DNA of 64,000 bases from Bacillota bacterium (GTDB taxonomy: Bacteria > Bacillota > Clostridia > Oscillospirales > Oscillospiraceae), in the NCBI GenBank assembly GCA_030535235.1, contig JAUNCL010000009.1, positions 1-64,000 on the forward strand, written 5' to 3'. How positions within the stretch are numbered: position 1 is the first letter of the stretch; every line of letters starts with the position of its first letter. Positions 29,353 through 48,140 of the stretch are shown here, in pieces. The notes beneath the pieces are model-generated. The model saw only the letters and a list, made by a program, of their open reading frames with translations. It did no database searches and was not told the origin of the DNA. The position numbers and the translations under genes are program-made.

Positions 29353-29396
29353 TATCTTATGCCAAGCCTTGGTTGGAGGAGATCGTCACCGGCTTA

Positions 29397-29527
29397 TGTA
29401 GGGAACGGGCATGCCCGTTCCGCTTGCCACGTTGCGGAGATCCGCAACGTGGGTTCGCGCCCACCGGCTGGGCGGGGGGCGTAGTTCCTGCCCTCCGGGT
29501 GACGGCGGGAGCAAGCCCCCGCCCTAC
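29397..29527 (+). repeat. Dispersed intergenic repeat, copy A
   Basis: Begins TGTAGGGAACGGGC and ends CCCCGCCCTAC. The reverse complement of 61164-61262 matches it along its length, about 85 percent by eye. This copy carries about 31 extra bases near 29464-29494. It has internal palindromes (GAACGGGC/GCCCGTTC and GTTGCGGA/TCCGCAAC). The remainder of this gap holds nothing recognised. Confidence 0.8.
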
Positions 29528-29555
29528 GGCGTTTGCACAGATTGAGAGGAAGGGA

Positions 29556-32500: not shown

Positions 32501-32798
32501 CCTGAATACCGCCGGTGACGGTGAGTTCACAGCCGTCTGTCAGGATCAGGTGGACATCGCCGGTGACGGTGACGCGCTGGGGTTCCGTATCCGTTCCGAT
32601 GGTCATATTGCCCCGTACCACATACCAGCCGTCGCTCCAATTGGTGTCGCCTCTGGTCACTTCCGTGGCGCTGGCGCAGGTCTGTTTGTCGCCGTTTTCG
32701 TTCAGATAGGACACACCGCCCTCCGCCAACGCCACGGTGGGCAGCAGCCCAAGGCACAGGGCCAGGGTCATCAGGATACTCAATAGTCGTTTTTTCAT
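29556..32798 (-). CDS. Large secreted SLH-domain protein with Gly-rich beta-helix repeats
   Basis: 1080 residues. Signal peptide about 1-25 (LLPTVALA). Residues about 130-330 and 480-700 are repeats of the type GGTITINGGTVTAT and ITGGSV, a likely beta-helix. Gly-rich GAGIGGGG loops recur. One InlB-type repeat (GYTFDSWF), a further beta domain, and three SLH modules at about 897-1080 follow. Its ribosome site AGGAGG is inside the last codons of the upstream TetR gene, so translation is coupled. Only large surface gene on this strand in the island. Confidence 0.9.
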   Translation of the reverse strand: MKKRLLSILMTLALCLGLLPTVALAEGGVSYLNENGDKQTCASATEVTRGDTNWSDGWYVVRGNMTIGTDTEPQRVTVTGDVHLILTDGCELTVTGGIQVAGNNNLTIYAQSTDESTMGKLTATGSSNGAGIGGGPYPGHNGGTITINGGTVIATSTSGAGIGGGGCSSDGGYTVGGNGGTITINGGTVTATSTNSGAGIGGGVGFVWGNGDSGYGGSGGDITINGGTVNATGTTGAGIGGGGGNNGGSGGEITICGGTVTASSTSGAGIGGGKGLSGGKGDGGTFQTTDNGNAVIFASSIGYQSNQSSWSGVIFEGDADGKVYGTSVTPIEDFTIDSDKKLTIPSGASLTIPEGKTLTNKGTISIDGGTMTNKGTIINNGGTITGTFFGIQPKVGVSAEYLDETGTKKTCDTAIVVESGDTTWGTVGKTTWYVVQGDVSISQGVTFSGDVHLILEDRCDLTVENGIESGGNLTIYAQSTGDAQGRIYAVGPETSDATSCGILVSNMTINGGSVTATGGSVTTTGGSVDTGSYGILAGNLTISGGSVGAKGSNAMMSYGIFTDSYLTITGGTVTATGNDAETISCGIYVHNQLTIDGSTVKAEVGSAADSNGIYANKQLTITDSTVKVKVGDAKDFSKGIATFGSVTITGGSVEVKAGTAGTSSTGILASGDVTITGGSHVTVHAPGNGSNGHAMNKSPQLPEIYWWRTADTDPFTASGTAKYKYKYSDTYVEFTDSFTITLDPNFDGGESGAMTTGADGKLTGNLPTPTRDGYTFDSWFTAATGGEKVTNETVFNGYVTIYAHWMAKSSGGSSTPTYPPTVTQPENGTVTVNPKSPRKGDTVTITPTPDAGYTVEQVLVTDKNGDAVEVTNNGDGTYSFTQPAGKVDVEITFMEDNTMLNFFVDVPANAYYYDAVLWAAENGITGGVDETHFAPNAPCTRAQIVTFLWRSAGCPEPENVSSFADVPADSYYAKAVAWAVEQGITTGTGDGMFSPDATCTRAQAMTFIYRSEQVQGGGMEGDWMFRNPFSDVDLESYYGEAVMWAVANGITTGTSDTTFSPGEDCTRAQIVTFLWRNCAE

Positions 32799-32801
32799 TT
32801 T

Positions 32802-33389
32802 TCACGCCTCCTTTTGGTTATATTTCATGATAAAGAGTTCCAGGGTTTCTTTCAGCGTTTCGATCTGGGATCTCAAATAAAATTTATCCTCAAACAGTGC
32901 GTAGTGGACACAGGCCCGGATCAGGATGAAGATCAGGGGTGTCAGCTTTTCGTGGGGAATGCCCAGCTTGCCCTCCAGGCTCTTTGCGTATTCGGTATAC
33001 CGGTGGTCTACGCCTTGGAAGAATTTCCGGCCGTATTCCCGGTATTTCGGGTGGGTGTACACCTGATACATCAGGCGGTACTTCTTGCCGTGCTGTTCCG
33101 CCGTCCAGTAGGGGATCTCGTCCATAAACCGCCACAGGTCCTCCACATCCGTGGGGGCTTTCGCCATGAACTCGTCCTCCACCTTGCTCATGCAGTGCTC
33201 GGTGGACTGGACGATCAGGTCATCCAGGTTCTTGAAATAGGTATAGATCATGGCCGTGTTATACCCGCAATGCTTCGCCAGGGTGCGAATGCCGGTGCCG
33301 TGCAGCCCCAAATTGGCAAAGCCGTTGAAGCACGTTTCCATCAGCGCAACCTTTTTCGCGTTCCATTGTGCTTCTGTGTAGTTCGCCAT
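32802..33389 (-). CDS. TetR-family regulator
   Basis: 195 residues from the ATG at 33389; a start at 33407 would place the ribosome site AAGGGGGGTGAT inside the gene. N-terminal helix-turn-helix: ETCFNGFANLGLHGTGIRTL, then CGYNTAMIYTYFKNLDDLIV. The C-terminal ligand-binding part is Tyr-rich (HGKKYRLMYQVYTHPKYREY). It sits directly upstream of the minus-strand SLH gene with three bases between them, so it very likely controls its own operon including that surface protein. The ligand is unknown. Confidence 0.88.
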   Translation of the reverse strand: MANYTEAQWNAKKVALMETCFNGFANLGLHGTGIRTLAKHCGYNTAMIYTYFKNLDDLIVQSTEHCMSKVEDEFMAKAPTDVEDLWRFMDEIPYWTAEQHGKKYRLMYQVYTHPKYREYGRKFFQGVDHRYTEYAKSLEGKLGIPHEKLTPLIFILIRACVHYALFEDKFYLRSQIETLKETLELFIMKYNQKEA

Positions 33390-33418
33390 GGGATCACCCC
33401 CCTTCATTCAAATCGTTT

Positions 33419-33436
33419 GTACGGAATCAAGCGTAC
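33419..33436. promoter_or_regulatory. Candidate TetR operator
   Basis: GTACG-gaatcaag-CGTAC is an inverted repeat 30 bases before the tetR start codon. The remaining sequence to 33739 is AT-richer than the genes and contains the promoter at 33687. Confidence 0.4.
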
Positions 33437-33686
33437 AGCATTACCGCATGAAAAATCAATCGGTTCCAACAGATGATTCGCTTTGCTGCAGTCGAGGCAA
33501 CGGCTCGACCATGCCCTATCCCCGTTATAACCGATTTCGGCAAGAAACGACAACCCCTTTTTTTATTTTGATCATGCCGTGAAACCCACTGGCTTGGAAA
33601 AACTGTAAATTGACAGGGGGATCGGACAAGCAGTCGAATGGATATCCTTATCCTTCTCCTGAGCTGCCCAGCCGGTCGTTCAAAGC

Positions 33687-33714
33687 TTGTATTTTTATGG
33701 AAGTGTGATATATT
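33687..33714 (+). promoter_or_regulatory. Promoter of the GAF/PAS hybrid kinase gene
   Basis: TTGTAT, 16 bases, TATATT; the start codon is 26 bases downstream of the -10 box. Confidence 0.5.
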
Positions 33715-33739
33715 AACATTGGTATGGTGGAGGTGCAGT

Positions 33740-36700
33740 ATGAACGATAAGAGACAAACACAGACTTGTCAGGAACAAGCGGTAAAGCAATTTCTGAGAG
33801 ATTATCTGGATAAAGCAAAAGATGCACAGGTGCTGAACAACATTCTGCGGGATATCGGCGGGTACTATGATGCGGATCGCGCCTATATCTTTGAGGCACA
33901 TACGGACCGAAGGGTATTCAATAATACCTTTGAGTGGTGCCGAGAAGGAGTTCATGCAGAGATTGACAATCTTCAGAATATTCCTATTGATGGAATGGAA
34001 TGCTGGTTTGAGGCATTTGAAGAGCAAGGGGAGTTCTATATCTCCTCCCTGTCTGATGACTATCACCCGGGCACAAAGACCTACGAGATTCTGGAACCGC
34101 AGGGCATCGAAAGTCTGATGGCGGCTCCCATCACGGTGAATGGTGAAGTGGTCGGCTTCCTTGGTGTGGACAACCCACGGAAGAATACCGATGCGCTGCT
34201 CCTGCTGTCCGTCGCGGCTTCCACCTGTTACAGCGAGGTTGCAACCGAGCGTATGATGCACGAAAAGCTGGCGGAGGTCAACAGGGCACTGATGGATCGG
34301 ATGCAGGTCATTCAATCCCTGGGCGAAATCTATACATCCATGTACTATATCGACCTGTCCACCGGACTCTTTACGGAGCTTTCCTCTGTAGATATCGTGA
34401 ATGCACACATCGGTGCGGCCGGCGACGCCCAGGAGCGACTGACCTATTTCAGCCATCACATGGTTGCACCGGAACACAAGGAAGAGGTGCTTGCGTTTAC
34501 CGATCTTTCCACGCTGAATGAACGCATGGCGCAGACCCGGATCGTATCCATGCAGTATCAGAGCACACTGTTTGGCGATTTGCAGACAGGCGGGACCTGG
34601 AGAGAGTGCTCGTTTATCGAGGGCGACCGGGACGCTGACGGACGGCTTGCCCATATCATTTTTACCACGAAATCCATTCATGACGTGAAGGTAAGAGAAC
34701 TGGAAGCCCTCAGAAAACTGCGGGATGAGATGGCAATCGCCGGAGCACTCAGCAGAGATTATCCTGATGTTGTGTTGCTTGATCTGGCAGATGACACCGC
34801 TGTGACCATCAAGCGCAACGGAACGGTCATTGCAGAAGATCAGAGAATCGTTCGACGCTCTTATCATGATACCTGGGACTACTATATTTCAAAATATGTT
34901 CTGGAGGAGGATCGGGACGCGCTTTGGGCCGCCATCTCGGTGGAAAAGGTGAAATCCGAGCTGGAAGACAGCGATGCGTATTCCTGCGGCTATCGTGTGA
35001 TCGCCGACGAAACGGGGGTTCATCATTATCAGGCGTCCTTTATCAGACTGTATTCATGGAATCATACGGAAAGTCAGATCATCCTGGGCTTCCGCTGTGT
35101 TGACGCGATCGTTGAGGAAGAGCGTAAAAACAGAGCGATTCAGGAAGAACAGCTCCACATTATCGGTGCGCTGAGCCAGGAGTACAGCAGCCTGTTCAAA
35201 ATTGATGCTAAGACAAGAAAAATGACCCTCTATCGGACCGATGGAATTGCATTTGATCCGGTAGTGCTGGAAAAGCTGCTTGCCCTTGGGGACTATGAGA
35301 TTATTTTGTCGAAATACATTGATGCGTTTGTTGTCCCGGAGGACCGTGACCGGCTGAAGGAATCCATCGTGCTTTCTGTTCTGATGGAAAAAGTCCCGGA
35401 GGTGGGACTGTATAAGCTTGGGTACAGACGAATGAAGGATGGCGTCATTACCTACTATGAAATGAACACGGCAAAAACGGTGGACAGCAGCGGAACCGTC
35501 ACGTTTATCCTGGGCCTGCGGGATGTGGACGAGGAAGCGCGGCGCCAGCTGAAGCAGACCAGAGAGATGGAAGTGCAGCGTGAAATCATTGAAGGCCTTG
35601 GCTCAGAATATTATTCTGTCCTTTTGGTGAACCCTGAAACGGATACCGTTGCCTTCTACCGCACGTCAGATGAGTATATTGTCTCTACCAATGAACGTCT
35701 TTCCAGAAGCCGGAACTGTTGGTCAATGCTCATGCAAAGCTACGCTGCAGAACAGGTTTCGGATAGCAGTCGTGCCGAGTATCTGGAGAAACTGTCTTTA
35801 GAGTATATCCGTGCCAGGGATGAGGACTACTCGGTAACCGCTGAAGTGCTGATCAATGGAGAATTCCATTATATTCAGCTGCGGGTGGCATATGTCCATG
35901 AAACAGACGGTAGCCATGTGGTTGTTATCGGAACGCGGGATGTGGATGACCTGATTCAGAAAGAGCGCCAGCAGGAAATAGCGCTGCAGGCAGCATTTGA
36001 CGCTGCGGAAGCCGCAAACAGGGCAAAGACTGATTTCCTGTCCCATATGTCTCATGATATCCGAACACCCATGAACGGAATTATTGGCATGACCGCCATC
36101 GCCGCAGCCCATATTGATGATAAGGAACGGGTGCAGGACTGCCTGAAGAAGACCACCCAGGCAAGCAAGCACCTTCTCAGCCTCATCAATGAAGTCCTGG
36201 ATATGAGCAAAATTGAATCGGGCAAGGTGGATTTGGTGGAAGAAGAATTCAGTTTTTCGGATCTGATTGATAATCTGCTTACCATGACCAACGCCCAGAT
36301 TGCAGAGCACCATCATGAGCTCTCCGTGAATATCTCCGGTGTGACCCATGAGGCGGTGGTGGGAGACAGCCTGCGCATCCAGAAGGTCTTTACCAACCTG
36401 ATGAGCAACGCGGTGAAGTACACGCCGGATGGCGGAAAAATCAAGCTTTCTATTTCTGAAAGACCTTCTCTGCACCCGAAAGTCGGATGTTTTGAAATCG
36501 TCTTTGAAGACAACGGGATCGGTATGAGCGAAGAATTTCAAAAGCAGATTTTTGAGCCGTTTACACGATCCAACGATGACAACCAGGTCAATAAAGTGCA
36601 GGGAACAGGTCTTGGAATGGCAATCAGCCGTAACATTGTCCGCATGATGGGCGGCGATATCAAGGTGGAAAGCAAGCTGGGCGTGGGTTCCCGCTTTACG

Positions 36701-37579
36701 GTCACCATGTATCTGAAACTTCAGGATGCCGCAGTCATCCAGTATGATAAATTTCTTGATCTGGATGTGTTGGTGGCGGATGATGATGCGCTCAGTCTGG
36801 AATCCTGCTGCGGAATGCTGAATGACCTCGGCATGAAAGCGGAGGGGGTTTCCACAGGGGCTGAGGCTGTGGAAAAGGTCGTAGCTCACCATCAGAGGAA
36901 TCAAGACTATTTTGCCTGCGTCATTGACTGGAGGATGCCGGATATGGATGGAATTGCCACCACGCGGGCCATCCGGAAGGCAGTGGGAAAGGATGTGCCA
37001 ATCATCATTATCTCCGCCTACGACTGGTCGGATATCGAGCAGGAAGCCCGCACCGCCGGGGCCAATGCCTTTATCAGCAAACCGCTGTTCCGCTCCAGGC
37101 TGGTAAAAACCTTCAGCTCCCTTGTGGGAAATGATGATTCTGATGAGCAGGAAACGCCTTTTGTTGCGCTGGATACAATAGATCTTAAGGGGAGCCGTAC
37201 CCTCCTGGTAGAAGACAATGCGCTGAATGCTGAGATTGCAACGGAAATCCTGGAAATGACCGGACTGACTGTGGAGCACGCAGCGGATGGCGTGGAAGCT
37301 GTTGACAGAATGGCCGCGTGTGACGATGGATATTACGACATAGTTTTCATGGATATCCAGATGCCGAGAATGAACGGCTATGACGCGGCGAGGGCGATCC
37401 GTGCCATGGACCGGCGCTATTGCAAACAAGTGCCCATTGTCGCCATGACGGCAAATGCATTTGCTGAAGATGTTCATGGGGCGAAGACGGCGGGCATGAA
37501 TGAGCATATTGCCAAACCCCTCGATCTGAATACACTTGCCAAAATACTGAAAAAGTGGATGGAGAAAAGTCCTCAGTAA
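33740..37579 (+). CDS. Hybrid histidine kinase: GAF, four PAS-like modules, HisKA, HATPase, two receivers
   Basis: 1279 residues from ATG 33740 (GGTGGAGGTG upstream; an in-frame start at 33638 has no ribosome site). No membrane helix, so cytosolic. GAF domain at about 35-180 ([18 protein letters not shown]). Four similar PAS-like units follow (starts near 195, 345, 475 and 625), each beginning with a pattern like [13 protein letters not shown]. HisKA with H772 in [17 protein letters not shown]; HATPase with [16 protein letters not shown] and GTGLGMAIS. Receiver 1 (about 1010-1130) has a complete acceptor ([12 protein letters not shown]); receiver 2 (about 1150-1275) has [12 protein letters not shown]. 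Probably feeds a phosphorelay with the genes downstream. Confidence 0.88.
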
Positions 37580-37622
37580 TTTTTCTCCGGAACGCAGTCG
37601 AATACGAGGAAACGAAATAAGT

Positions 37623-37650
37623 GGAGTGCCTTCCGGTGTGAGGGCACTCC
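37623..37650. other. Hairpin after the hybrid kinase gene
   Basis: GGAGTGCC pairs with GGCACTCC around a 12-base loop. No T-run follows on either strand, so termination is doubtful. Confidence 0.4.
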
Positions 37651-37711
37651 AAAATGCTATTCGAATCCATTCAGATGTTAAAAATAATCCTCATAGATTA
37701 GGGGAAGATTA

Positions 37712-37740
37712 TTGTGCTTATATGTCTTTTGTGCTATACT
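37712..37740 (+). promoter_or_regulatory. Promoter of the HTH-receiver gene
   Basis: TTGTGC, 17 bases, TATACT. The start codon lies 51 bases after the -10 box, so this gene can be expressed apart from the upstream kinase. Confidence 0.6.
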
Positions 37741-37791
37741 GACACAAAAGGAAATGATAGCGCAGCGTACACGGAAAGGAGGAGTGAAGAT

Positions 37792-38673
37792 ATGACGACG
37801 ACGGAAACAATCAATATCGTTTGCGCCGAGCTCGGAATTTCAAAGGCTGAACTGGCAAAGAGAATGGGGATGCTTCCGTCTTCTTTATACAGAAAACTTG
37901 CCAGAGAAAGCATGACGTTTGAAGAGCTGCAGAAATGTCTTGATGTGTTGGGGGTCACGATCGAGTTTGAACTGCAATACCCGGACGGCAATACCCGCAG
38001 TTCACAGGCGAATCATGAGATGCTCCTGGAAAGAATGGATTTGTTGGAAACAGAACTGGAAGCGGCGAGAAAAGCAGCGGAATTTCAAAACAAATCATTA
38101 AGGGATTTACGGACAGAGATGAACAGCGCCGTCGGATATGCAGAACTTGTCGGGAGACATGGCTCCAAAGCGGAGGAATACATGGGGAAGCTCCAGAGGG
38201 TTCTTACCAACATGGAGGCGACCATAGCCTATGCCCTTGGGGAGGCGCTGGAGGATGTGCCGGAAGCGGAAGACCCGGAGGACATCGAAGCATTAAAGGG
38301 AAAGAGAGTGCTCCTTGTGGATGACAACGAACTGAATCGTGAGATCCTGAAGGAAGTGCTTGTGGATCACGGCCTCCTGGTGGAGGAAGCGGATAACGGA
38401 AGCAAAGCGATTGCAGCGGTGAAAGGGAACGAGCCCGGTTACTATCACTTTATCCTGATGGATATTGAAATGCCGGTGATGGATGGATACGAGGCAACCA
38501 TGAAGATACGGAAACTTCCGAATCGAATCCGGGCAAATATTCCCGTTATCGCGCTGACCGCAAACGCGGTTCCTGAGAATCGGGAGAGGGCGTCCGCCGT
38601 GGGCATGGATGACTTCCTTGTAAAGCCGACCAATTCAGTGCGTCTGCTGAGTAGTCTGGTAAAATTCCGGTGA
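37792..38673 (+). CDS. XRE-type HTH, vestigial kinase dimerisation domain and receiver domain
   Basis: 293 residues from ATG 37792 (AAAGGAGGAGTGA upstream). Residues 5-60: Cro/XRE-like HTH (CAELGISKAELAKRMGM, SSLYRKLA). Residues 72-98: coiled coil. Residues 98-155: helices that align in register with the HisKA domains of the two kinases here; FQNKSLRDLRTEMNSAVGY against [19 protein letters not shown], so the phospho-acceptor His is Arg104. No HATPase. Residues 170-293: complete receiver (D177/D178, D224 in ILMDIEMPVMDGY, T257, K278). Likely DNA-binding endpoint of the phosphorelay, docked through its DHp-like segment. The role is inference; the architecture is seen. Confidence 0.82.
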   Translation: MTTTETINIVCAELGISKAELAKRMGMLPSSLYRKLARESMTFEELQKCLDVLGVTIEFELQYPDGNTRSSQANHEMLLERMDLLETELEAARKAAEFQNKSLRDLRTEMNSAVGYAELVGRHGSKAEEYMGKLQRVLTNMEATIAYALGEALEDVPEAEDPEDIEALKGKRVLLVDDNELNREILKEVLVDHGLLVEEADNGSKAIAAVKGNEPGYYHFILMDIEMPVMDGYEATMKIRKLPNRIRANIPVIALTANAVPENRERASAVGMDDFLVKPTNSVRLLSSLVKFR

Positions 38674-38772
38674 ATCGTCGGGAGGAGGGAAAAAGACGCA
38701 AGGGAGAGGAAAGCAGGCGGCTTTGCGGCTGCCGGGATTGTGCAGACAAAAACGATGAGAGGAAGAAGAAAG

Positions 38773-40674
38773 ATGAAAACAAAGAGATTGCTGTGTCTGC
38801 TGCTTGCAGTCGTCATGGCAGCAACGATGCTGGCCGGCTGCGGCAGCCAAAACGAGGGCGCCGGAAACAAAGGGGACGACGGCAAAATTTCCATCAGCAT
38901 GTACATGTGGGACCGGTCCATGCTCAAGGAGCTGTCTCCCTGGCTGGAGGAGAAGTTCCCCGAGATCGAGTTTACCTTTGTCCAGAGCTTCAACACCATA
39001 GAATACTACAAGGACCTGCTGGCCCGGGGTGAGGAGATTCCCGACATCATCACTTGCCGCCGGTTCTCCCTGAATGACGCGGCCCCTCTGGCCGATCACC
39101 TCATGGACCTGAGCCAGACCGAGGTGGCCGGCACCTTCTACTCCAGCTACCTGGAAGTGAACCGGGAGACCAGCGGTGCCATCCGCTGGCTGCCCATGTG
39201 CGCCGAGGTGGACTGCACCATGGCCAACAAGGACCTGTTTGACCAGTACGGCATCCCCCTGCCCACCAATTACGAGGAATTCGTTGCCGCCATCGACGCT
39301 TTCGAGGCGGTGGGCATCAAGGGGTATCAGACCGACTGGGGCTATGACTACACTTGTCTGGAGACCATGCAGGGCTGTGCCATCCCGGAGCTGATGAGCC
39401 TGGAGGGTACCCAGTGGCGCATGGAGTATGAGAGTGAGACCGAGGAGGAGCAGGTGGGTCTGGACAATGTGGTCTGGCCCAAAGTGTTTGAGAAATATGA
39501 GCAGTTCCTGAAAGACGTCCGCTTCCAGCCCGGCGATGAGGAGCTGCAGTTCAGCAAGACCATGGAGCCGTACTTTGCGGGCCAGACCGCCATGGTCCGC
39601 AACACGGCGGCTCTGGCGGACGACATCACGAAGGAGCGGGGCATCAACAGCGTCATCCTGCCCTATTTCGGCGAGACCAGCGAGGACAACTGGCTGCTGA
39701 CCTACCCCATGTGCCAGCTGGCCGTGTCCAGCACCGTGGAGCAGGACGAGGCCAAGCGGAAAGCCGTGCTGGAAGTGCTGTCCGCCATCTTCAGCGAGGA
39801 GGGCCAGAAGCACGTGGCCGCCGGCACCTCCGTGCTGTCCTACAACAAGGAAGTGAAGATCACCCCCACCCCGCCCCTGGCATATGTGCAGGACTGCATC
39901 GACAGAAACCACCTGTATATGCGTCTGGCCTCCACGGAGGTGTTCTCCATCTCCCAGGACGTGGGCCACAAGATGATGACCGGCGAGTATGACGCCAAGA
40001 GCGCGTATGAGGCCTTCGACGCCCAGATCACCAACTATGTGAACCCGGAGGCGGAGGAGATCCTGTTCACCCAGGAGACCGCCTATTCCAATGACTTCAC
40101 CGAACACGGCAGCGCTGCGGCGTCTTCTCTGATGAACACCATCCGGGACTCCATGGAGGCCGACATCGCCATCGGCTATTCCCCCGTGGCCAGCACCTCC
40201 ATCTATGCCGGGGACTATACCCTGCAGCAGGCCAAGTGGGTTTTGACGGCAAGAAATGCCGTCTACCAGGGGGAATACACCGGCGAGGAAGTCCGCCGGT
40301 TCATGGACTGGCTGGTGAACATGAAGGAGGACGGCTCCAATCCCATCCACCACCGCAACCTGATGCCCGTCACCAGCGGCCTGGAATACACCGTCACCGA
40401 GTACGAGCGGGGCCGGTTCCGCCTGGAGGAGATCACCGTGGACGGCAAGCCCCTGGACGACAGCGCCGTCTACACCCTGCTGCTGGTGGGTGCGGACACC
40501 TTCCTGGAGCATGAGACCTTCTGCAACTGCCCCATGCCCGACGACCTGAAGGCGAAGCGGGAGGACTATCTGGTGGACGATTTCTCCAGTCAGGAGTGCA
40601 TGCAGGAGGCGCTGGAGAAAACCAGGCAGTTCCTGGAGCCCACGGAGTATGTGACCATTCTGCCGGGGGAATAA
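38773..40674 (+). CDS. Lipoprotein fusing a solute-binding protein to a 5'-nucleotidase C-terminal domain
   Basis: 633 residues from ATG 38773; the ribosome site GAGGAAGAAG is modest. Lipobox ATMLAGCGS. Residues about 30-440 are an SBP_bac_8-like binding protein (ISISMYMWDRSMLKELSPWL, IPDIITCRR, YFAGQTAMVR). Residues about 445-590 follow the 5'-nucleotidase C-terminal domain order: SLMNTIRDSMEADIAIGYSP, then YTGEEVRRFMDWL, NLMPVTSGLEYTVTEYERG, ITVDGKPLDDSAVYTLLLVG. The metallophosphoesterase half of 5'-nucleotidases is absent, so no hydrolysis is expected; nucleotide or nucleoside binding is possible. No ABC permease or ATPase gene nearby. The sensor kinase gene starts 34 bases later. Confidence 0.8.
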   Translation: MKTKRLLCLLLAVVMAATMLAGCGSQNEGAGNKGDDGKISISMYMWDRSMLKELSPWLEEKFPEIEFTFVQSFNTIEYYKDLLARGEEIPDIITCRRFSLNDAAPLADHLMDLSQTEVAGTFYSSYLEVNRETSGAIRWLPMCAEVDCTMANKDLFDQYGIPLPTNYEEFVAAIDAFEAVGIKGYQTDWGYDYTCLETMQGCAIPELMSLEGTQWRMEYESETEEEQVGLDNVVWPKVFEKYEQFLKDVRFQPGDEELQFSKTMEPYFAGQTAMVRNTAALADDITKERGINSVILPYFGETSEDNWLLTYPMCQLAVSSTVEQDEAKRKAVLEVLSAIFSEEGQKHVAAGTSVLSYNKEVKITPTPPLAYVQDCIDRNHLYMRLASTEVFSISQDVGHKMMTGEYDAKSAYEAFDAQITNYVNPEAEEILFTQETAYSNDFTEHGSAAASSLMNTIRDSMEADIAIGYSPVASTSIYAGDYTLQQAKWVLTARNAVYQGEYTGEEVRRFMDWLVNMKEDGSNPIHHRNLMPVTSGLEYTVTEYERGRFRLEEITVDGKPLDDSAVYTLLLVGADTFLEHETFCNCPMPDDLKAKREDYLVDDFSSQECMQEALEKTRQFLEPTEYVTILPGE

Positions 40675-40708
40675 AAAACCGCACGGAAGCGGAAAGGAGG
40701 GCTGCGCC

Positions 40709-43207
40709 ATGAAAAAACGATTGCTTGCCCTGCTGCTGACCCTTGGGTTGGCGGCAGGGCTGGGTTGGGCCGGCTTTGCCTACTTTGGTTTTGTATCTCA
40801 GACCATTTACGAAGAGAGCACAGCCCACCTCACCGAAATCTTTCATCAGGCCAACCAGGCTCTGTATAACCTGGTTTCGGTCAACTGGAGCCGGATGCGG
40901 ATGTGGACGCCCTATCTGGAGACCGCAGAAAGCGAAGCGGATGTTGTGGCCTATGTGAACCAGGCCCGGGAGGAGAGCAATTTCACCGATTTCTATTTCA
41001 TCTCCCGGAACGGCGAATATCTCACCCTGACAGGGGACAGAGGCTATCTGGAGCTGCGGAATCAGCTTGCGGATCTGATCCTGGAAAAGCAGCCGGTGGT
41101 GGCCAACTCTGTTGTCCCGGACCAGCCGGAGATCATGGTGTTTGCCATTCCCGCCGGGCAGGGCAGTTACCGTGCGTTCACCTATGAGGCCATCGCCATC
41201 ACCTATAACAACTCCGACCTGGTGGATGCTTTGAAGATCTCTGCCTTCGACGGACAGGCCAGCACCTTTGCGGTGCTGCCCGATGGCCGGGTGGTGGTGG
41301 ATAACAGCAGCGAGAATCTGCAGGATTGCCACAATCTCCTTTCGATGCTGGAAGAATCGGAAAGCCTGACCGATGAGGAAATCGCCGCCCTGCGGAAGGA
41401 CTTTCTGACCGGACATTCCGGTTCGATGGTGCTTGACATCCATGACAGGTCCTATTATCTGGTGTATGAGTCTGCAAACTTTCAGAACTGGACGGTTGTA
41501 GGTATTGTACCCGCCGATGTGGTCAACGCCAGCATGAACAAGCTTCAGTCCACTACCATGCTTGTGGTGTCGGGAATTGCCATCGCGCTGGCCGTGCTGT
41601 TTCTGCTGCTGGTGATCCAGCAAAACCGGCAGAAGCTGAAACGGAAGGACAATGAGCTGCTTGCCCGTGACGAGCTGTTCTCCAAGCTGTCCATCAATGT
41701 GGACGATGTCTTCCTGATGATGGACGCAAAGGATCTTCGTGTGGAATATGTAAGTCCCAATATTGAAAAGCTGATTGGGATTTCGGAGCAGGAGGTTCTC
41801 AACGATATTCATGCCCTCGAGCATCTGATCCGGACAGACGAATCGGTTCACGTATTGGATCAACTGTCGAAAATTCTGCCCGGCGAGCAATGCGAGTGGG
41901 ACAGAGAGTACATCCACCAGAAGACCGGTGAGGAGATGTGGTTCCGCGTGGTGGCCTTCTGCACGGATATTCAGGGCGAGAAGAAGTATATTCTGGATCT
42001 GTCTGACCGCACCAAGGACAAGAAGATCAATCAGAAGCTTGCCGACGCGGTCCACACCGCGGAGAATGCCAGCCGCGCCAAGACCACCTTCCTGAACAAC
42101 ATGTCCCATGACATCCGAACCCCCATGAATGCCATCATTGGCTTTACCAATATCGCGCTGAAACAGAAGCCGAAACCAGAGGTAAGGAACTGCCTCCACA
42201 AGATCAGCAATAGCTCCGAGCATCTGCTGACCCTGATCAATGATGTTCTGGACATCAGCCGTATTGAGAGCGGCAAAATCAAATTTGCCCCCATCCCCGT
42301 GGATATCACAGCGGTGGCAGACACGGTGCTCAGCATTATGCAGGGCTTCCTGTCCGACCGGAATATTGCATTCCGCACCGATCTGGCGATACCGGAGACG
42401 CCCTATGTGCTGGCCGATGCCGTGCGTATCCGGGAGGTGCTGGTGAATATCCTGGGCAATGCGGTGAAATTTACAGAGGACGGCGGCGCCATCGACTTTG
42501 CAGTCAGCTACCATCCCGGCGGAGATGACCGCCACATCGTGGTACGCTATCGGGTGGCGGATACCGGCGTAGGCATGAGCGAGGGATTTGTAGAGCACAT
42601 CTTCGATGAGTTTTCTCAGGAGGAAAACGGCGCCCGGACACAGTATAAGGGCACCGGCCTGGGCATGGCCATCACAAAGCGGTATGTCGATCTGATGGGC
42701 GGCACCATCTCTGTGGAGAGCAAAAAGGACGTGGGTTCCACCTTCACAGTAGAGATTCCCATGGAGCTGACCGAGGAAAGCAAGGTTCAGAAGCAGGATC
42801 TTCCTGCCGTTGAGGCGAACCTGATGGGCGTAAAGATCCTGCTGGCGGAGGACAATGACCTGAACGCGGAAATTGCAACGGTGCAGCTGGAGGAACTGAG
42901 CATTCAGGTGACCAGAGTCGCCGACGGCAAGGAAGCAGTCAAAACCTTCGCAGAGAATCCGCCGGATACCTTTGACATGATCTTTATGGATATCATGATG
43001 CCGGAAATGAACGGTTATGAAGCCACAGCTGCCATCCGGGCCATGCAGGATCACCCGGATGCCCGCAGGATTCCTATCATCGCCATGACGGCGAACGCCT
43101 TTGCTGAGGATGTTCAGGCCTCTTTAGATGCAGGTATGGATGGCCATATTGCCAAGCCGATCGTTATGGATGAGGTGATCAAGGAAATTGCGCGAAATCT
43201 TAATTGA
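40709..43207 (+). CDS. Membrane hybrid histidine kinase: Cache, PAS, HisKA, HATPase, receiver
   Basis: 832 residues, AAAGGAGGG upstream. One membrane helix at about 5-25, an extracellular double-Cache-like domain (30-285; [20 protein letters not shown]), a second helix at about 287-308, then PAS (about 325-440; [20 protein letters not shown]). HisKA has H467 in [17 protein letters not shown]; HATPase has [19 protein letters not shown] and GTGLGMAIT. Receiver at about 708-828 with [12 protein letters not shown]. No DNA-binding domain. The adjacent lipoprotein is a good candidate for its external partner. The gene ends near a rearrangement border. Confidence 0.9.
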
Positions 43208-43344
43208 GTAAACAGTATACGAAAGAGGTTGCCGCTGCCGTCAGGCTGCGAATACGCAGTCGAGAAAAGCACCGAATCGTTCCTCCGGGTACGGTATTCC
43301 ATATCCGTCCGGTACGAGCCACTTTACGTATACGATTGGACGTG

Positions 43345-43593
43345 CCGCAATATAGCATTCCCCCAGGCGGCGTCGAAGGTGAGAGAGCAGACTTTATAGT
43401 CCCGCTGTACGCAGTAGATGGGGAGCTGGCGGTCGGTGGTGGAGGCGGTGACGTAGGTGGGGAGGTTGGTGACCAGGCACAGGGCCAGGACAGCCAGAAC
43501 GGCCCCGGGAATGGCCAAGAATCGTTTCCGCAGGAAGAGGACCCGGTGGCCTTTCCTCTGGTCCCGGGTCTGTTTGGGGCGAAGGTGCTTCAT
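43345..43593 (-). pseudogene. Truncated polysaccharide deacetylase (N-terminal remnant)
   Basis: About 79 residues of a membrane-anchored NodB-type deacetylase survive: a helix (LAIPGAVLAVLALCLVTNL) and the start of the catalytic domain, LPIYCVQRDYKVCSLTFDAAWGN. In intact PdaB-like proteins the motif continues EDT and about 170 more residues. Here homology stops right after GN, near 43356, and unrelated codons lead to a stop at 43324. The rest is not found in the window. The catalytic half is missing, so the product would be inactive. The break abuts the signalling island. Confidence 0.75.
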
Positions 43594-43710
43594 GAGGATC
43601 CCGTCCTTTCTTCGTTTCTTATAGAAAGAACCTATGCGCCGGAGAAAAATTCATGCGGGAAAGGGAGAAAAAGGACGGGCCCGGCTTTGTCCCGCAGCCG
43701 GGCAAGAAGA

Positions 43711-43736
43711 CAAAAAAGCCGGTCTTTTGACCGGCT
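43711..43736 (-). terminator. Minus-strand terminator or attenuator before the deacetylase remnant
   Basis: Read on the minus strand: AGCCGGTC-aaaa-GACCGGCT followed by TTTTTTG. It lies about 120 bases before the remnant's start codon; it may attenuate that gene or end an unseen minus-strand transcript. Confidence 0.7.
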
Positions 43737-43838
43737 AACATATCTAATATAGCACCATCCCGGCGGAGGGTCAAGGGAGCTGCCCCCGGTGAAGCCAAAA
43801 TCTCTGTTTTGTACGATTTTGCGCGGTGCAATTTGAAC

Positions 43839-43878
43839 AAGTTTGCGGCTTGCAAACTTTTGTTTCTTGTGCTATATT
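43839..43878 (+). promoter_or_regulatory. Promoter of the candidate noncoding RNA, overlapped by a palindrome
   Basis: TTGCAA (43850-43855), 17 bases, TATATT (43873-43878). The perfect palindrome AAGTTTGC-ggctt-GCAAACTT (43839-43859) covers the -35 box. It may be an operator, or the stem of a terminator since TTTTGTTTC follows. Confidence 0.5.
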
Positions 43879-43885
43879 ATAGTCA

Positions 43886-44166
43886 GAAACAGAAAGGGTG
43901 AGTCCAATGTACAGCTAACCCCGCAGCAAGAAATCCCACAACTTGCTGACGAAGCGTTTTTTCGAGCGAATCGTTCAACATAGAAAGCGACCTCACTTTT
44001 GAGGATGATATAAATGGAAAACATGTTGGAAACGGTATGTAGATCGAAGGAAACGTCAGTTGTCATGTGGAATCTGTAGAAAGAGAGGTTAAATGGATGT
44101 TAGATATTAAGAGCGTTCGATAACCCTTGACCGGGCTGGAGAGATCCGCTGGTCAAGGGTTATCAT
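43886..44166 (+). ncRNA. Candidate structured noncoding RNA, about 280 nt
   Basis: Bounded by the promoter just upstream and a perfect 14-bp terminator stem (GATAACCCTTGACC at 44119-44132 with 44151-44164, then ATTTTC). The DNA is clearly more AT-rich than the genes. It contains stems GCAGCAAG/CTTGCTG and CCTCA/TGAGG. There is no long reading frame; only a three-codon ORF (Met-Tyr-Ser, start 43907) with GGGTGAG before it. No known RNA family was recognised by eye (6S, tmRNA, RNase P and SRP signatures were looked for). The gap 43208-44485 otherwise holds the deacetylase remnant and the pncB promoters. Confidence 0.45.
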
Positions 44167-44168
44167 TT
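44119..44168 (+). terminator. Terminator of the candidate noncoding RNA
   Basis: Perfect 14-bp stem with an 18-base loop and an ATTTTC tail. Confidence 0.7.
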
Positions 44169-44291
44169 TCTCTGTCTGCCGCGCCCGGGAAAGGGCGCTT
44201 TTTTGCTGCCCGGCGAGAGAAGCCAGGTGACGGAATTCCTGTAAAAAATGGGTAAAATAGGGGAGCGGTGCAGGAAATTTGCCGTAATCCA

Positions 44292-44320
44292 TTGCGATTT
44301 TTCCGGGATTCGTGTATAGT
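44292..44320 (+). promoter_or_regulatory. First of two tandem promoters before pncB
   Basis: TTGCGA, 17 bases, TATAGT. A small hairpin (AAACCC-GCAC / GTGC-GGGTTT, about 44344-44367) lies just downstream and could stop its transcript before the second promoter. Confidence 0.55.
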
Positions 44321-44368
44321 ATAAAAAGGGAGATCTCAGAGAAAACCCAGGCACAGTGCGGGTTTCTG

Positions 44369-44397
44369 TTGACTTGTCACATGATTAGGCATATAAT
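44369..44397 (+). promoter_or_regulatory. Second, near-consensus promoter of pncB
   Basis: TTGACT, 17 bases, TATAAT. The leader to 44485 carries a hairpin GCGAAGC / GCTTCGC (44412-44438) followed by CTATTTTAT, a possible attenuator. Confidence 0.7.
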
Positions 44398-44485
44398 AAG
44401 CGAGATATCCCGCGAAGCGTCCCTGGGAGGTGCTTCGCCTATTTTATCGCGGCCCCGCCGCTGAAATGAAACAGAGGATAAGGAC

Positions 44486-45946
44486 ATGAATACAAGCAAG
44501 AAGCTGAACATGACCATGCTGTGCGACTTCTATGAGCTCACCATGGGCAACGGATATTTCAAGGCCGGATACAAGGATCGCATCACCCACTTCGACCTGT
44601 ATTTCCGCAGTGTACCCGACCAGGGCGGTTATGCCATCGCTGCCGGACTGGAGCAGGTCATCGACTACATCCAGGACCTCCACTTCGACGAGGAGGACAT
44701 CCAGTACCTCCGGGACCGGAAGATGTTCGATGAGGAATTCCTGGACTACCTGAAGAACTTCAAGTTCACCGGTGATATCTACGCCATCCCCGAGGGAACC
44801 CCTGTCTTTCCCCACGAGCCCATCCTCACCGTTCGGGCTCCCGCCATTCAGACTCAGCTGCTGGAGACCTTCCTGCTGCTGACCATCAACCATCAGTCCC
44901 TCATCGCCACCAAGGCCAACCGCATCGTCCGGGCTGCCAAGGGCCGCACCGTGCTGGAGTTCGGCTCCCGCCGGGCCCAGGGCTCCAGCGGCGCCATCGA
45001 CGGCGCCCGGGCCGCCTTCATCGGCGGCTGCAACGGCACCGCCTGCACCATCTCCGACCAGCTCTACGGCGTCCCCGCCGGGGGGACCATGGCCCACGCC
45101 TGGGTCCAGATGTTTGACACCCAGTACGACGCCTTCCGCACCTACTGTGAGGTCTATCCCGACAATCCTGTCCTCCTGGTGGACACCTACAACACCCTCA
45201 AGAGCGGCATCCCCGACGCCATCCGGGCCTTCAACGACGTCCTCAAGCCCAAGGGCATCACCAAGTGTGGCATCCGCTTGGACTCCGGCGACATGGCCTA
45301 CCTGACCAAAAAGGCTCGCCGTATGCTGGACGAGGCCGGCTGGACCGAATGTAAGATCACCGTGTCCAACTCCCTGGACGAGAACGTGATCCAGGACCTC
45401 CTCCTTCAGGGGGCTCAGATCGACGCCTTCGGTGTGGGCGAGCGGCTCATCACCGCCCGCAGCGAGCCGGTCTTCGGCGGTGTGTACAAGCTGGTGGCCA
45501 TCGAGGACGACCAGGGCAACGTGATCCCCAAGATCAAACTCAGCGAAAACGTGGCCAAGATCACCATTCCCCAGTTCAAAAAGGTCTTCCGCCTCTTTGA
45601 CAACGCCGACGGCATGGCCATCGGCGACTGGATGTGCACCTACGACGAGACCGTGGAGGACAACCTGAACCCCGACGGCAGCCTGACCATCTTCGACCCC
45701 GACGTGACCTGGAAGACCAAGACCATCTCCGGCTTCACCGCCAAGCAGATCCAGGTCCCTATCTTCCTGAACGGCGAGCTGGTGTATCAGTGCCCCACCC
45801 TGCCGGAGATCCAGCAGTACTGCAAGGAGCAGATGGACACCATGTGGGACTCCGTGAAGCGGTTTGAAAACCCCCACAACTACTATGTGGACCTGTCCCG
45901 GAAGCTGTGGGACATCAAGTACGAGCTGCTGACCCATCACCAGTAA
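44486..45946 (+). CDS. pncB: Nicotinate phosphoribosyltransferase
   Basis: 486 residues, usual length for the Gram-positive family. Converts nicotinate and PRPP (with ATP) to nicotinate mononucleotide in NAD salvage, in the cytosol. Recognised by the N-terminus MLCDFYELTMGNGYF, FDLYFRSVPDQGGYA, the loop VLEFGSRRAQG with conserved Arg residues, GGTMAHAWVQMF, and the catalytic core IRLDSGDMAYL. Ribosome site AGAGGATAAGG. The niaR repressor gene and a transporter follow, which supports regulated niacin salvage. Confidence 0.95.
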   Translation: MNTSKKLNMTMLCDFYELTMGNGYFKAGYKDRITHFDLYFRSVPDQGGYAIAAGLEQVIDYIQDLHFDEEDIQYLRDRKMFDEEFLDYLKNFKFTGDIYAIPEGTPVFPHEPILTVRAPAIQTQLLETFLLLTINHQSLIATKANRIVRAAKGRTVLEFGSRRAQGSSGAIDGARAAFIGGCNGTACTISDQLYGVPAGGTMAHAWVQMFDTQYDAFRTYCEVYPDNPVLLVDTYNTLKSGIPDAIRAFNDVLKPKGITKCGIRLDSGDMAYLTKKARRMLDEAGWTECKITVSNSLDENVIQDLLLQGAQIDAFGVGERLITARSEPVFGGVYKLVAIEDDQGNVIPKIKLSENVAKITIPQFKKVFRLFDNADGMAIGDWMCTYDETVEDNLNPDGSLTIFDPDVTWKTKTISGFTAKQIQVPIFLNGELVYQCPTLPEIQQYCKEQMDTMWDSVKRFENPHNYYVDLSRKLWDIKYELLTHHQ

Positions 45947-45980
45947 AGACGTTTGGGATGGGAGCGGCAAATGCCCGGTC

Positions 45981-46008
45981 GTAGGGGCGATTCGTGAATC
46001 GCCCCTAC
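45981..46008. repeat. Perfect palindrome GTAGGGGCGATTC (REP-like)
   Basis: 13-bp arms with a two-base loop, between pncB and niaR. AAAAAA follows on the plus strand, so on the minus strand it has a T-run preceding. Resembles the GTAGGG...CCCTAC ends of the dispersed repeat in this window. Confidence 0.7.
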
Positions 46009-46048
46009 AAAAAACGGAGCACACGTTTCTCACCAAGGAGGATGGCCG

Positions 46049-46555
46049 ATGAAGGCAGAAGAGCGAAGAAAAATCATTGCGCAGATCCTGACTGCGGATC
46101 GGCCCATCAGTGCCACGGCGCTGGCGGGGAAGTTTGATGTCAGCCGTCAGATCATTGTGGGAGATATCGCCCTCCTCCGGGCCTCCGGCCTGGATATTGT
46201 GGCCACCCCCAGAGGATACAAGCTGGGGGAGACCACCGGCCTGGTCCGCACCGTGGCCTGCATCCACACCGGGGTGGACGCCCTGGAGCAGGAGCTGCTG
46301 GCCATGGTGGACAACGGCTGCACCGTCCTGGATGTGGTGGTGGAGCACCGGCTCTACGGGGAGATCACCGGCCAGCTCAGCCTCTCCTCCCGCTATGACG
46401 TCCAGCAGTTCGTGGAGCGGGCCAGGGATTCCTCCACCCTCTCCTCCCTCACCGGGGGACTTCACCTGCACAATCTCCGCTGCCCTGACGAGGAGGCCTA
46501 TCAGCGGGTGTGCCGGGACCTGGAAAAGCTGGGAATCCTCTACACCCAGGGGTAA
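46049..46555 (+). CDS. niaR: Niacin-responsive repressor NiaR
   Basis: 168 residues. N-terminal winged helix (RRKIIAQILTADRPISATAL, then FDVSRQIIVGDIALLRASG) and a C-terminal 3H domain with spaced His residues (CIHTG, VVEHRLYGEITGQL, GGLHLHNL) that binds nicotinate with a metal. This is the YrxA/NiaR family, which represses NAD-biosynthesis and niacin-uptake genes. Placed between pncB and a transporter whose promoter overlaps a long palindrome. Ribosome site AAGGAGG. Confidence 0.92.
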   Translation: MKAEERRKIIAQILTADRPISATALAGKFDVSRQIIVGDIALLRASGLDIVATPRGYKLGETTGLVRTVACIHTGVDALEQELLAMVDNGCTVLDVVVEHRLYGEITGQLSLSSRYDVQQFVERARDSSTLSSLTGGLHLHNLRCPDEEAYQRVCRDLEKLGILYTQG

Positions 46556-46579
46556 GAAAAGAAAGCACTTTTGCACGGA

Positions 46580-46608
46580 TTGACAACTGCACCAGAAATG
46601 ATTATAAT
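46580..46608 (+). promoter_or_regulatory. Perfect-consensus promoter of the transporter gene
   Basis: TTGACA, exactly 17 bases, TATAAT. The operator palindrome begins at the last base of the -10 box. Confidence 0.85.
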
Positions 46609-46649
46609 AGTCTCTACACATGTCTTGACATGTATAGAGACTATTTTTT
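46608..46649. promoter_or_regulatory. Long palindrome: likely NiaR operator, also terminator-shaped
   Basis: 16-bp arms with one mismatch around CTTG, with core ACATGT-cttg-ACATGT, followed by TTTTTTACG. Lying across the predicted transcription start between niaR and a transporter, it fits a repressor site. The stem plus T-run could also attenuate transcription. Assignment to NiaR is by context. Confidence 0.6.
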
Positions 46650-46672
46650 ACGAAAGACGAAGGAGTATAGGA

Positions 46673-47779
46673 ATGCAAGGATTCAAATCATTTCTGGCGC
46701 GGAAGAACATTGTCTTCTCCGCCAAGCGGTACGGGGTGGACGCCCTGGGGGCCATGGCCCAGGGCCTCTTCTGTACCCTGCTGGTGGGAACCATTCTGAA
46801 CACCCTGGGGACCCAGCTGGGCATCGGTTTCCTGGCGGCCAAGGTGGTCACCATTGGAACCGGCGATGCCGCCGTGGGCTACACCATCGGCGGCCTGGCC
46901 TCGGCTATGGTGGGCCCGGCTATGGCCATCGCCATCGGCTATGCCCTCCAGGCCCCGCCCCTGGTCCTCTTCTCCCTGGCCCCGGTGGGCTACGCCACCA
47001 ACGTGCTGGGCGGGGCCGGCGGCCCTCTGGCGGTGCTGGTCATCGCCATCCTCGCCGCCGAGTGCGGCAAAGCGGTCTCCAAGGAGACCAAGATCGACAT
47101 CCTGGTGACCCCCATCGTCACTGTCCTGGTGGGCATCGGGGCGGCCTATCTCATCGCGCCCCCCATCGGCCGGGCGGCCTCCTGGGTGGGGAACCTCATC
47201 ATGTGGGCCACCGAGCTGCAGCCTTTCTTCATGGGCATCCTAGTGTCGGTCATCGTGGGCATCGCCCTGACCCTGCCCATCTCCAGCGCGGCCATCTGCG
47301 CCGCTCTGGGACTCACCGGCCTGGCCGGCGGCGCGGCGGTGGCCGGCTGCTGCGCCCAGATGGTGGGCTTCGCCATCCTGTCCTTCCGGGAGAATAAGTG
47401 GGGCGGTCTGGTCTCCCAGGGCCTGGGGACCTCCATGCTCCAGATGGGCAACATCGTCCGCAACCCCAGGATCTGGATCCCCCCCACGGTGGCCTCGGCC
47501 ATCACCGGCCCCATTGCCACCTGCATCTTCCGCCTGGAGATGAACGGCACCCCCGTGTCCTCGGGCATGGGTACCTGCGGACTGGTGGGCCCCATTGGGG
47601 TGTACACCGGCTGGGTCAACGACGTGGCGGAGGGCCTGAAGGCCTCGGTCAGCGGCATGGACTGGCTGGGTCTGGTGCTGGTCTGCTTCGTCCTGCCTGC
47701 CGTCCTTACCTGGCTCATCGGGATTCCCTGCCGGAAGCTGGGCTGGATCAAGGAGGGAGACCTGAAGCTGGAGGGATAA
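46673..47779 (+). CDS. PTS-IIC-like membrane transporter, niacin uptake candidate
   Basis: 368 residues from ATG 46673 (AAGGAGTATAGG upstream; an in-frame start at 46571 would lie upstream of the promoter). About nine to ten hydrophobic helices. The pattern resembles the EIIC-like family PTS_EIIC_2 (GVDALGAMAQGLFCTLLVGTI near the start, NPRIWIPPTVASAITGP later). No EIIA or EIIB gene or domain is nearby, so sugar phosphotransfer is unlikely. Its promoter carries the likely NiaR operator, so import of nicotinate or a related NAD precursor is inferred. Confidence 0.8.
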   Translation: MQGFKSFLARKNIVFSAKRYGVDALGAMAQGLFCTLLVGTILNTLGTQLGIGFLAAKVVTIGTGDAAVGYTIGGLASAMVGPAMAIAIGYALQAPPLVLFSLAPVGYATNVLGGAGGPLAVLVIAILAAECGKAVSKETKIDILVTPIVTVLVGIGAAYLIAPPIGRAASWVGNLIMWATELQPFFMGILVSVIVGIALTLPISSAAICAALGLTGLAGGAAVAGCCAQMVGFAILSFRENKWGGLVSQGLGTSMLQMGNIVRNPRIWIPPTVASAITGPIATCIFRLEMNGTPVSSGMGTCGLVGPIGVYTGWVNDVAEGLKASVSGMDWLGLVLVCFVLPAVLTWLIGIPCRKLGWIKEGDLKLEG

Positions 47780-47990
47780 AAGGGGGAACTCCTTTCGGTT
47801 GAAAATATGCCCAAAGAAAATGTTGTGTTTTTGTACAAATACAACAAGGCTGAATGGTATAAAACGATAAAAATGGCGTGGACTCCCAAGTTTAGGTTGC
47901 AAAAATGACCGAAAAGAGGGATACTATATATGGCAAAATTAGATTCATCCGGATATCCATACATATCCGTACACCAAAGGAGGAACTGAG

Positions 47991-48140
47991 ATGAAGAAGA
48001 TGATCGCCCTGTGCATGGCAGCCCTGATGAGCCTGGCTCTGCTGGCCGGCTGCGACTCTGCCGACCCCGAGAACCCCTATGGCCAGGAGCCCGCTCCCGC
48101 CAACGGCACCAGCGCTGTGGTGTCCGCTGAGCAGGTCTGA
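47991..48140 (+). CDS. 49-residue lipoprotein of unknown function
   Basis: A short gene with AAAGGAGGAAC ten bases before its ATG. It encodes a lipobox signal (MSLALLAGCDS) and a mature tail of only about 28 residues (Pro, Ala, Asn and Val rich). A strong terminator follows 16 bases after the stop, which supports it as a real gene. No family recognised. Confidence 0.75.
   Translation: MKKMIALCMAALMSLALLAGCDSADPENPYGQEPAPANGTSAVVSAEQV

Follow-up and report, generated by a model that had tools for sequence, protein, structure and literature searches.

The window, by which we mean the whole 64,000-nt stretch of DNA analysed here, carries three neighbouring forward-strand genes encoding an HTH-REC regulator, a lipoprotein and a membrane hybrid histidine kinase (Table 1). 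The lipoprotein ORF codes for 633 aa, begins with an ATG preceded by a purine-rich stretch and ends with the stop codon included in the tabulated interval; the kinase ATG lies 34 bases past that stop. The HTH-REC gene can also be read as a longer frame that starts with GTG at 37714. Relatives of the lipoprotein fall into branch A, to which the window belongs, and branch B, which has the same layout. Loci of relatives are designated L### and the genomes compared G###.

Table 1. Features of the lipoprotein-kinase locus (window positions)
Feature	Position	Strand	Basis
HTH-REC regulator, 293 aa (counted from the ATG shared with relatives)	37792..38673	+	HTH_26, Response_reg (Pfam)
SBP::5_nucleotid_C lipoprotein, candidate co-sensor	38773..40674	+	ORF, Pfam, 94 branch-A members
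Lipoprotein signal peptide, lipobox LAGC, Cys = residue 23	38773..38841	+	Sequence, hydrophobic stretch at residues 3-26
Solute-binding half, residues 24-425, boundary approximate	38842..40047	+	SBP_bac_8, PDB matches
5'-nucleotidase C-terminal (UshA-type) domain, ~residues 428-633	40054..40671	+	PF02872, reverse HMM tests
Membrane hybrid histidine kinase, 832 aa	40709..43207	+	Pfam, hydrophobic segments
Kinase ectodomain, presumed docking surface for the lipoprotein	40787..41542	+	Between two hydrophobic segments; co-divergence, 45 pairs

The lipoprotein joins a solute-binding protein (SBP) half to the C-terminal domain of 5'-nucleotidases. In Pfam, PF02872 is matched with an E-value of 1.7e-10 (41.7 bits against a cut-off of 23.6) over residues 453-570, corresponding to profile positions 28-141 of 158. 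SBP_bac_8 is matched marginally over residues 107-362 (E 1.9e-6, 28.4 bits against a cut-off of 27). No metallophosphoesterase domain is found by Pfam at E-values up to 1. The original prediction of such a fusion, lacking the phosphoesterase half and to be checked by a profile search, is thus borne out, and the fusion in the window is real, beyond chance. NCBIfam models match weakly, far below their cut-offs; those of UshA and related nucleotidases are among them, at the same place. The three UshA-like motifs pointed out at the time sit at residues 504-514, 529-541 and 554-567. The lipobox cysteine, C23, is kept in 98% of branch-A lipoproteins (n = 82 non-redundant).

In the PDB, a family profile of the SBP half finds its best match in 3quf (E 3.2e-14), which is a solute-binding protein of family 1; several proteins named as sugar-binding come next, so a carbohydrate is the likely ligand, as far as such matches can tell. 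Cysteines 143 (39199-39201) and 195 (39355-39357) are both present in 87 of the 94 branch-A members, where they adjoin the most conserved SBP motifs, and may form a disulfide. Median pairwise identity among the 82 non-redundant members of this branch is 0.50 in the SBP half versus 0.40 in the C-half.

An HMM built solely from the C-halves of 13 relatives recovers, at E 0.01, 8 of 27 genuine 5'-nucleotidase loci of the order (best 4.7e-10); it also hits E. coli UshA at E 1.7e-4 when a small local set is searched. The domain thus appears by homology to descend from the substrate-binding domain of UshA-type 5'-nucleotidases. The family C-profile matches all 94 branch-A members at 1e-5, the profile's own source sequences included. 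In single Pfam scans, the PF02872 cut-off is reached by four of the five copies in the window's own genome and by three of ten other branch-A relatives (L002, L004 and L005), and is missed by L003, L030, L031, L033, L123, L119 and L086. Judged by these scans, the C-domain of branch A has diverged and its Pfam match is not uniform across relatives. SBP_bac_8 scores 37 to 54 bits in L003, L005, L030, L031 and L125, and has no Pfam match in L002, L004 and L033. The branch-A N-profile also picks up more distant relatives at L125 (13700-15529), L113 (6023-7972) and L117 (62-1894). In Pfam, L125 has an SBP_bac_8 match and PF02872 far below cut-off, L113 has PF02872 (4e-11) and no SBP match, and L117 has neither.

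The five copies of the SBP::PF02872 lipoprotein in the window's own genome are spread over four contigs. Elsewhere, 256 relatives were confirmed in named contigs, of which 80 were kept: 77 come from metagenome bins, whose titles mostly say Clostridia or Bacillota and in some cases Spirochaetales, Erysipelotrichaceae or Anaeroplasma, while the other three come from strains, namely Oscillibacter valericigenes An860 and Pseudoflavonifractor phocaeensis An858 and An901. Branch A comprises 94 distinct full-length members of 590-759 aa. With the window protein as query, matches at E 1e-20 occur in at least 12 of 394 genomes of the order, own genome counted, and three of these 12 (G067, G182 and G281) hold branch B. 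With the branch-A alignment as query at 1e-40, the figures are at least 3 of 278 genomes of the class and at least 1 of 398 of the phylum, own genome again counted; branch B at 1e-40 is found in at least 8 of 388 genomes of the order and at least 3 of 291 of the class. All these counts are lower bounds, since scoring stopped after three or four candidates in each genome. None of 15 congeners matches the window lipoprotein at 1e-20, G007 and G015 giving weak matches at 2-4e-4. A search of a plasmid collection gave no match.

The usual gene order is one or two lipoprotein genes followed by a membrane hybrid histidine kinase. It was examined in 99 distinct members (94 of branch A and 5 of branch B), a kinase being defined as a frame similar to the ectodomain or core of the window kinase at E 1e-3. 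The next gene is a kinase in 69 cases, a second lipoprotein in 15 and an HTH-REC gene followed by a kinase in one; eight members reach the contig end and six have none of these. The tandem cases go on to a kinase in 13 instances and to a contig end in two. When the eight members that end at a contig edge (within 400 bases) and the two second-copy edge cases are left out, 83 of 89 testable members reach a kinase gene: 69 directly, with a median gap of 28 bases, 13 via the second copy and one via HTH-REC. The link to the sensor kinase encoded 34 bases downstream, another element of the original prediction, is thus conserved far beyond the window's own genome. Among the six exceptions, the contig of L024 breaks off where a membrane frame starts; L029, L060, L068 and L086 appear solitary, with no kinase after the lipoprotein, and so does L103 by the gene-order comparison. 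Of the 91 members with enough upstream sequence, 11, the window's among them, have an HTH-REC-like gene no more than 600 bases ahead of the lipoprotein gene.

As a control, 12 ordinary SBP loci of the relatives were inspected over flanks of about 1.5 kb. None has a kinase neighbour; a permease is visible in four, and the branch-A N-profile matches the SBP in 11. Searches with two sugar-permease queries found a sugar-type permease within 5 kb in one of 52 members for which at least 8 of 10 kb of flank are available, and this one is on the opposite strand. Locus L023 (9301-13097) carries two different lipoproteins of this family in tandem before one kinase. Tandem lipoproteins before a kinase are also seen at L088, L092, L095, L096, L098, L100, L101, L104, L105, L109, L110, L117 and L119. 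This arrangement suggests a two-lipoprotein sensor.

The window kinase is ordered as TM, dCache-like ectodomain, TM, PAS, HisKA, HATPase and REC, with hydrophobic segments at about residues 5-26 and 279-308. Its Pfam match to dCache_1 (20.7 bits) is below the cut-off of 45. The seven partner kinases scanned all have HisKA and HATPase domains, together with either one REC or two. Five of them also match dCache_1, in every case below the curated cut-off. Just upstream of the cassette, positions 33638-37579 of the window encode a large hybrid kinase that combines GAF with two REC domains; its N-terminal part is matched, in two pieces, in one other locus (L054) among those compared. Downstream, the stretch 43358-43543 is 80% conserved in one congener (G008), where it lies upstream of the gene found at 44486 in the window; an Rfam search of positions 30000-48000, this stretch included, gave no match. 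The window also holds two dispersed repeats. One of about 28 bases (~45985-46012) recurs at 86-100% identity in many contigs of the own genome and of congeners; the other, of about 137 bases (~29396-29532), has one full copy at 86% and parts at up to 92% in several own-genome contigs.

The lipoprotein and the kinase ectodomain diverge together. Over 45 pairs, distance matrices of the lipoprotein correlate with those of the ectodomain at r 0.82 versus 0.40 with those of the kinase core; controlling for the core leaves a partial correlation of 0.78 between lipoprotein and ectodomain, a value reached in 0 of 999 permutations. The signal comes through in the full set and in the 29 pairs with the other kinase type (for these, partial correlation 0.65, 0 of 999 permutations as high). 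In the 16 pairs with the window's type of kinase the partial correlation is 0.11 and 215 of 999 permutations are as high, so that the signal is invisible at that depth. L052 and L059 each pair a lipoprotein of 76-77% identity with a core of only 43%; in L059 the figures are 76% for the lipoprotein, 64% for the ectodomain and 43% for the core. When each half of the lipoprotein is correlated with the ectodomain given the other half, the N-half yields 0.59 and the C-half -0.23. The C-half thus adds nothing beyond the N-half, and a contact role for it is therefore unsupported by this analysis.

The two branches differ in the nucleotide site of the C-domain. The site was taken as UshA positions 379, 405, 410, 429, 431, 498 and 504, which we assume to be equivalent to the CD73 residues after fitting to alignments. 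In CD73, according to PMC8677862, the base is stacked between Phe417 and Phe500, the ribose is held by Asn390 and Asp506, and the phosphate by Arg354 and Arg395. The comparison took in 19 genuine 5'-nucleotidases, 7 sequences of branch B and 94 of branch A. In branch B all seven positions are kept in 7/7 sequences. For the genuine enzymes and branch A, respectively, conservation is 18/19 and 1/94 at R379, 16/19 and 0/94 at N405 (the Asn of the NGGGIR loop), 19/19 and 0/94 at R410 (Arg or Lys), 19/19 and 26/94 at F429 (any aromatic), 18/19 and 37/94 at N431, 17/19 and 0/94 at F498 (any aromatic), and 14/19 and 0/94 at D504. Twelve of the 19 genuine enzymes keep the complete site and one keeps only two positions; E. 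coli UshA, whose residue 405 is Ser, scores six. Among the 94 branch-A members, 46 keep none, 32 keep one and 16 keep two. The window lipoprotein keeps one position, N431. Its D504 depends on the alignment, being lost in one and Asp in two smaller ones (which would make two of seven), while R379, N405, R410, F429 and F498 are lost in all three.

In branch B, four site motifs are present in ten genomes (nine by pattern, L187 by eye), and the kinase directly follows the gene in 10 of 10 genomes examined, with a gap of -20 to +1 bases. Branch-B loci are L035, L036, L037, L121, L122, L148, L151 and L182-L188. The original prediction was that the window protein could hold two ligands or present nucleotides to the sensor kinase; conserved stacking aromatics were named as a sign that would support it. 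The stacking aromatics, F429 and F498, are absent from the window protein, and presentation of nucleotides is set aside for this protein because most nucleotide-site residues have been lost in branch A. In branch B, with its complete site, nucleotides may still be bound.

It appears likely that the window lipoprotein is an extracytoplasmic co-sensor of an SBP-dependent signalling system that has recycled a nucleotidase domain. The domains, the conserved gene order, the lost site residues and the co-divergence with the ectodomain can be read from the sequences themselves; for solute binding, docking, signal flow, the ligand class and the role of the C-domain we infer the following. The lipoprotein would be tethered to the outer side of the membrane, where its SBP half would close on a small solute, most likely a carbohydrate. 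The lipoprotein would also dock on the dCache-like ectodomain of the downstream hybrid histidine kinase, and the signal would pass to the kinase's own REC and possibly also to the HTH-REC protein encoded upstream. In branch A, the C-domain has most likely lost nucleotide binding and may serve as a structural or contact module. Counting against this reading are the low partial correlation within the window's kinase type, the lack of added signal from the C-half, the six testable members that no kinase follows and the dCache_1 matches below cut-off. Adjacency of an sbp gene and a kinase gene also need not mean that the two work together: according to PMC11113362, neighbouring SBPs and kinases of Pseudomonas aeruginosa gave no binding by calorimetry or two-hybrid assay.

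Several other readings must be weighed against this co-sensor. One is that the window protein has retained nucleoside or nucleotide binding in its C-domain and senses this ligand or presents it to the kinase, which is quite improbable. The homology to UshA, the intact site of the same-layout branch B, and the retention of N431 and, in two of three alignments, of D504 speak for it, but all 94 branch-A members keep two of the seven positions at most: none has R410, the loop Asn or the second stacking aromatic, and a single one has R379. We give a somewhat better, still low, chance to the reading that the lipoprotein is an ordinary binding protein for ABC transport with its permease gene at another place; the C-domain would then be a passive remnant and the kinase a mere neighbour. 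The lipoprotein SBP is indeed related to sugar-binding proteins, and the five solitary members have flank and no kinase after them. Against an ordinary transport protein stand the kinase adjacency, frequent in the family and absent from the ordinary SBP loci, the near absence of a permease nearby, and the co-divergence of the lipoprotein with the kinase ectodomain.

An assembly or annotation artefact has a negligible probability. The assembly of the own genome is a 51-contig draft, but three of the 80 kept records are titled as strains rather than metagenome bins, and the conservation of 94 distinct full-length branch-A frames refutes this reading. Contamination was also set aside, the downstream flank of the contig matching 10 of 15 congeners in long matches at 77-88% identity. 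Bearing on a possible horizontal transfer or genomic island, the congeners G008 and G010 have other genes upstream of this conserved flank; a search with the upstream flank of the contig returned mainly repeats and fragments. As to the origin of the two branches, the branch-A SBP profile gives branch B 48.6-85.2 bits and an ordinary 434-aa SBP beside a permease (L011) 69.8 bits. The fusion may thus have arisen once or twice.

Signalling through an SBP and a kinase is already known, while no description of the combination of SBP and PF02872 domains was found in a literature search that covered few subscription journals; in the accessible text of that literature, the two Pfam names co-occur in one paper, on fungal GPCRs. 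LuxQ and TorS are hybrid kinases, and LuxP-LuxQ and TorT-TorS are Gram-negative systems with different SBP families; we know of no nucleotidase-type domain in either. As proposed for the window, their binding protein signals through a hybrid kinase. LuxP and TorT are cited as periplasmic binding proteins used for signalling in PMC5908839, which also places the genes of the AioX binding protein, the AioS kinase and the AioR regulator in one cluster; AioX is PhnD-like and binds arsenite, and the available part of this source mentions no extra C-terminal domain. UshA and CD73 share the homologous C-terminal domain (PF02872), the binding residues of which branch B keeps. Unlike in these enzymes, the catalytic metallophosphoesterase half is replaced by an SBP, and the window's branch A has lost most of the binding residues.

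The co-sensor reading has a close working precedent in CuaD of Ruminiclostridium cellulolyticum: in a two-hybrid test this lipoprotein SBP, likewise from Clostridia, binds the CuaS ectodomain (PMC10384115). As in the window, the lipoprotein SBP gene of CuaDSR adjoins the sensor kinase gene, and CuaD is distinct from the SBP of the transporter. CuaD, described there as a plain SBP with 410 residues in its mature form, lacks the nucleotidase domain of the window lipoprotein; unlike that of the window kinase, the CuaS ectodomain is given without a predicted domain, and CuaDSR has a separate REC regulator with a C-terminal AraC-type HTH. The same source reports a complex of two SBPs and two kinase ectodomains for XylFII-LytS, with no mention of a nucleotidase-type domain in the part available.

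A broader model holds that a nucleotidase substrate-binding domain, severed from its enzyme and attached to an SBP, gave rise to a family of two-ligand co-receptors of sensor kinases, in which branch B senses extracellular nucleotides or nucleosides together with a solute and branch A has repurposed the scaffold, with another function in place of the nucleotide input. We regard this model as speculative and rather unlikely. If the co-sensor reading is correct, it would add a two-module co-sensor to the SBP-kinase systems, and the substrate-binding domain of an enzyme would have been reused outside its enzyme. The family looks like an undescribed type of ligand-detecting antenna in some gut Clostridia. 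Of greatest interest is branch B, found outside the window, in which this layout comes with an intact site. Branches A and B, without and with the site, are natural controls for each other, and branch B offers a direct test case for whether gut Clostridia may sense extracellular nucleotides via a non-catalytic receptor.
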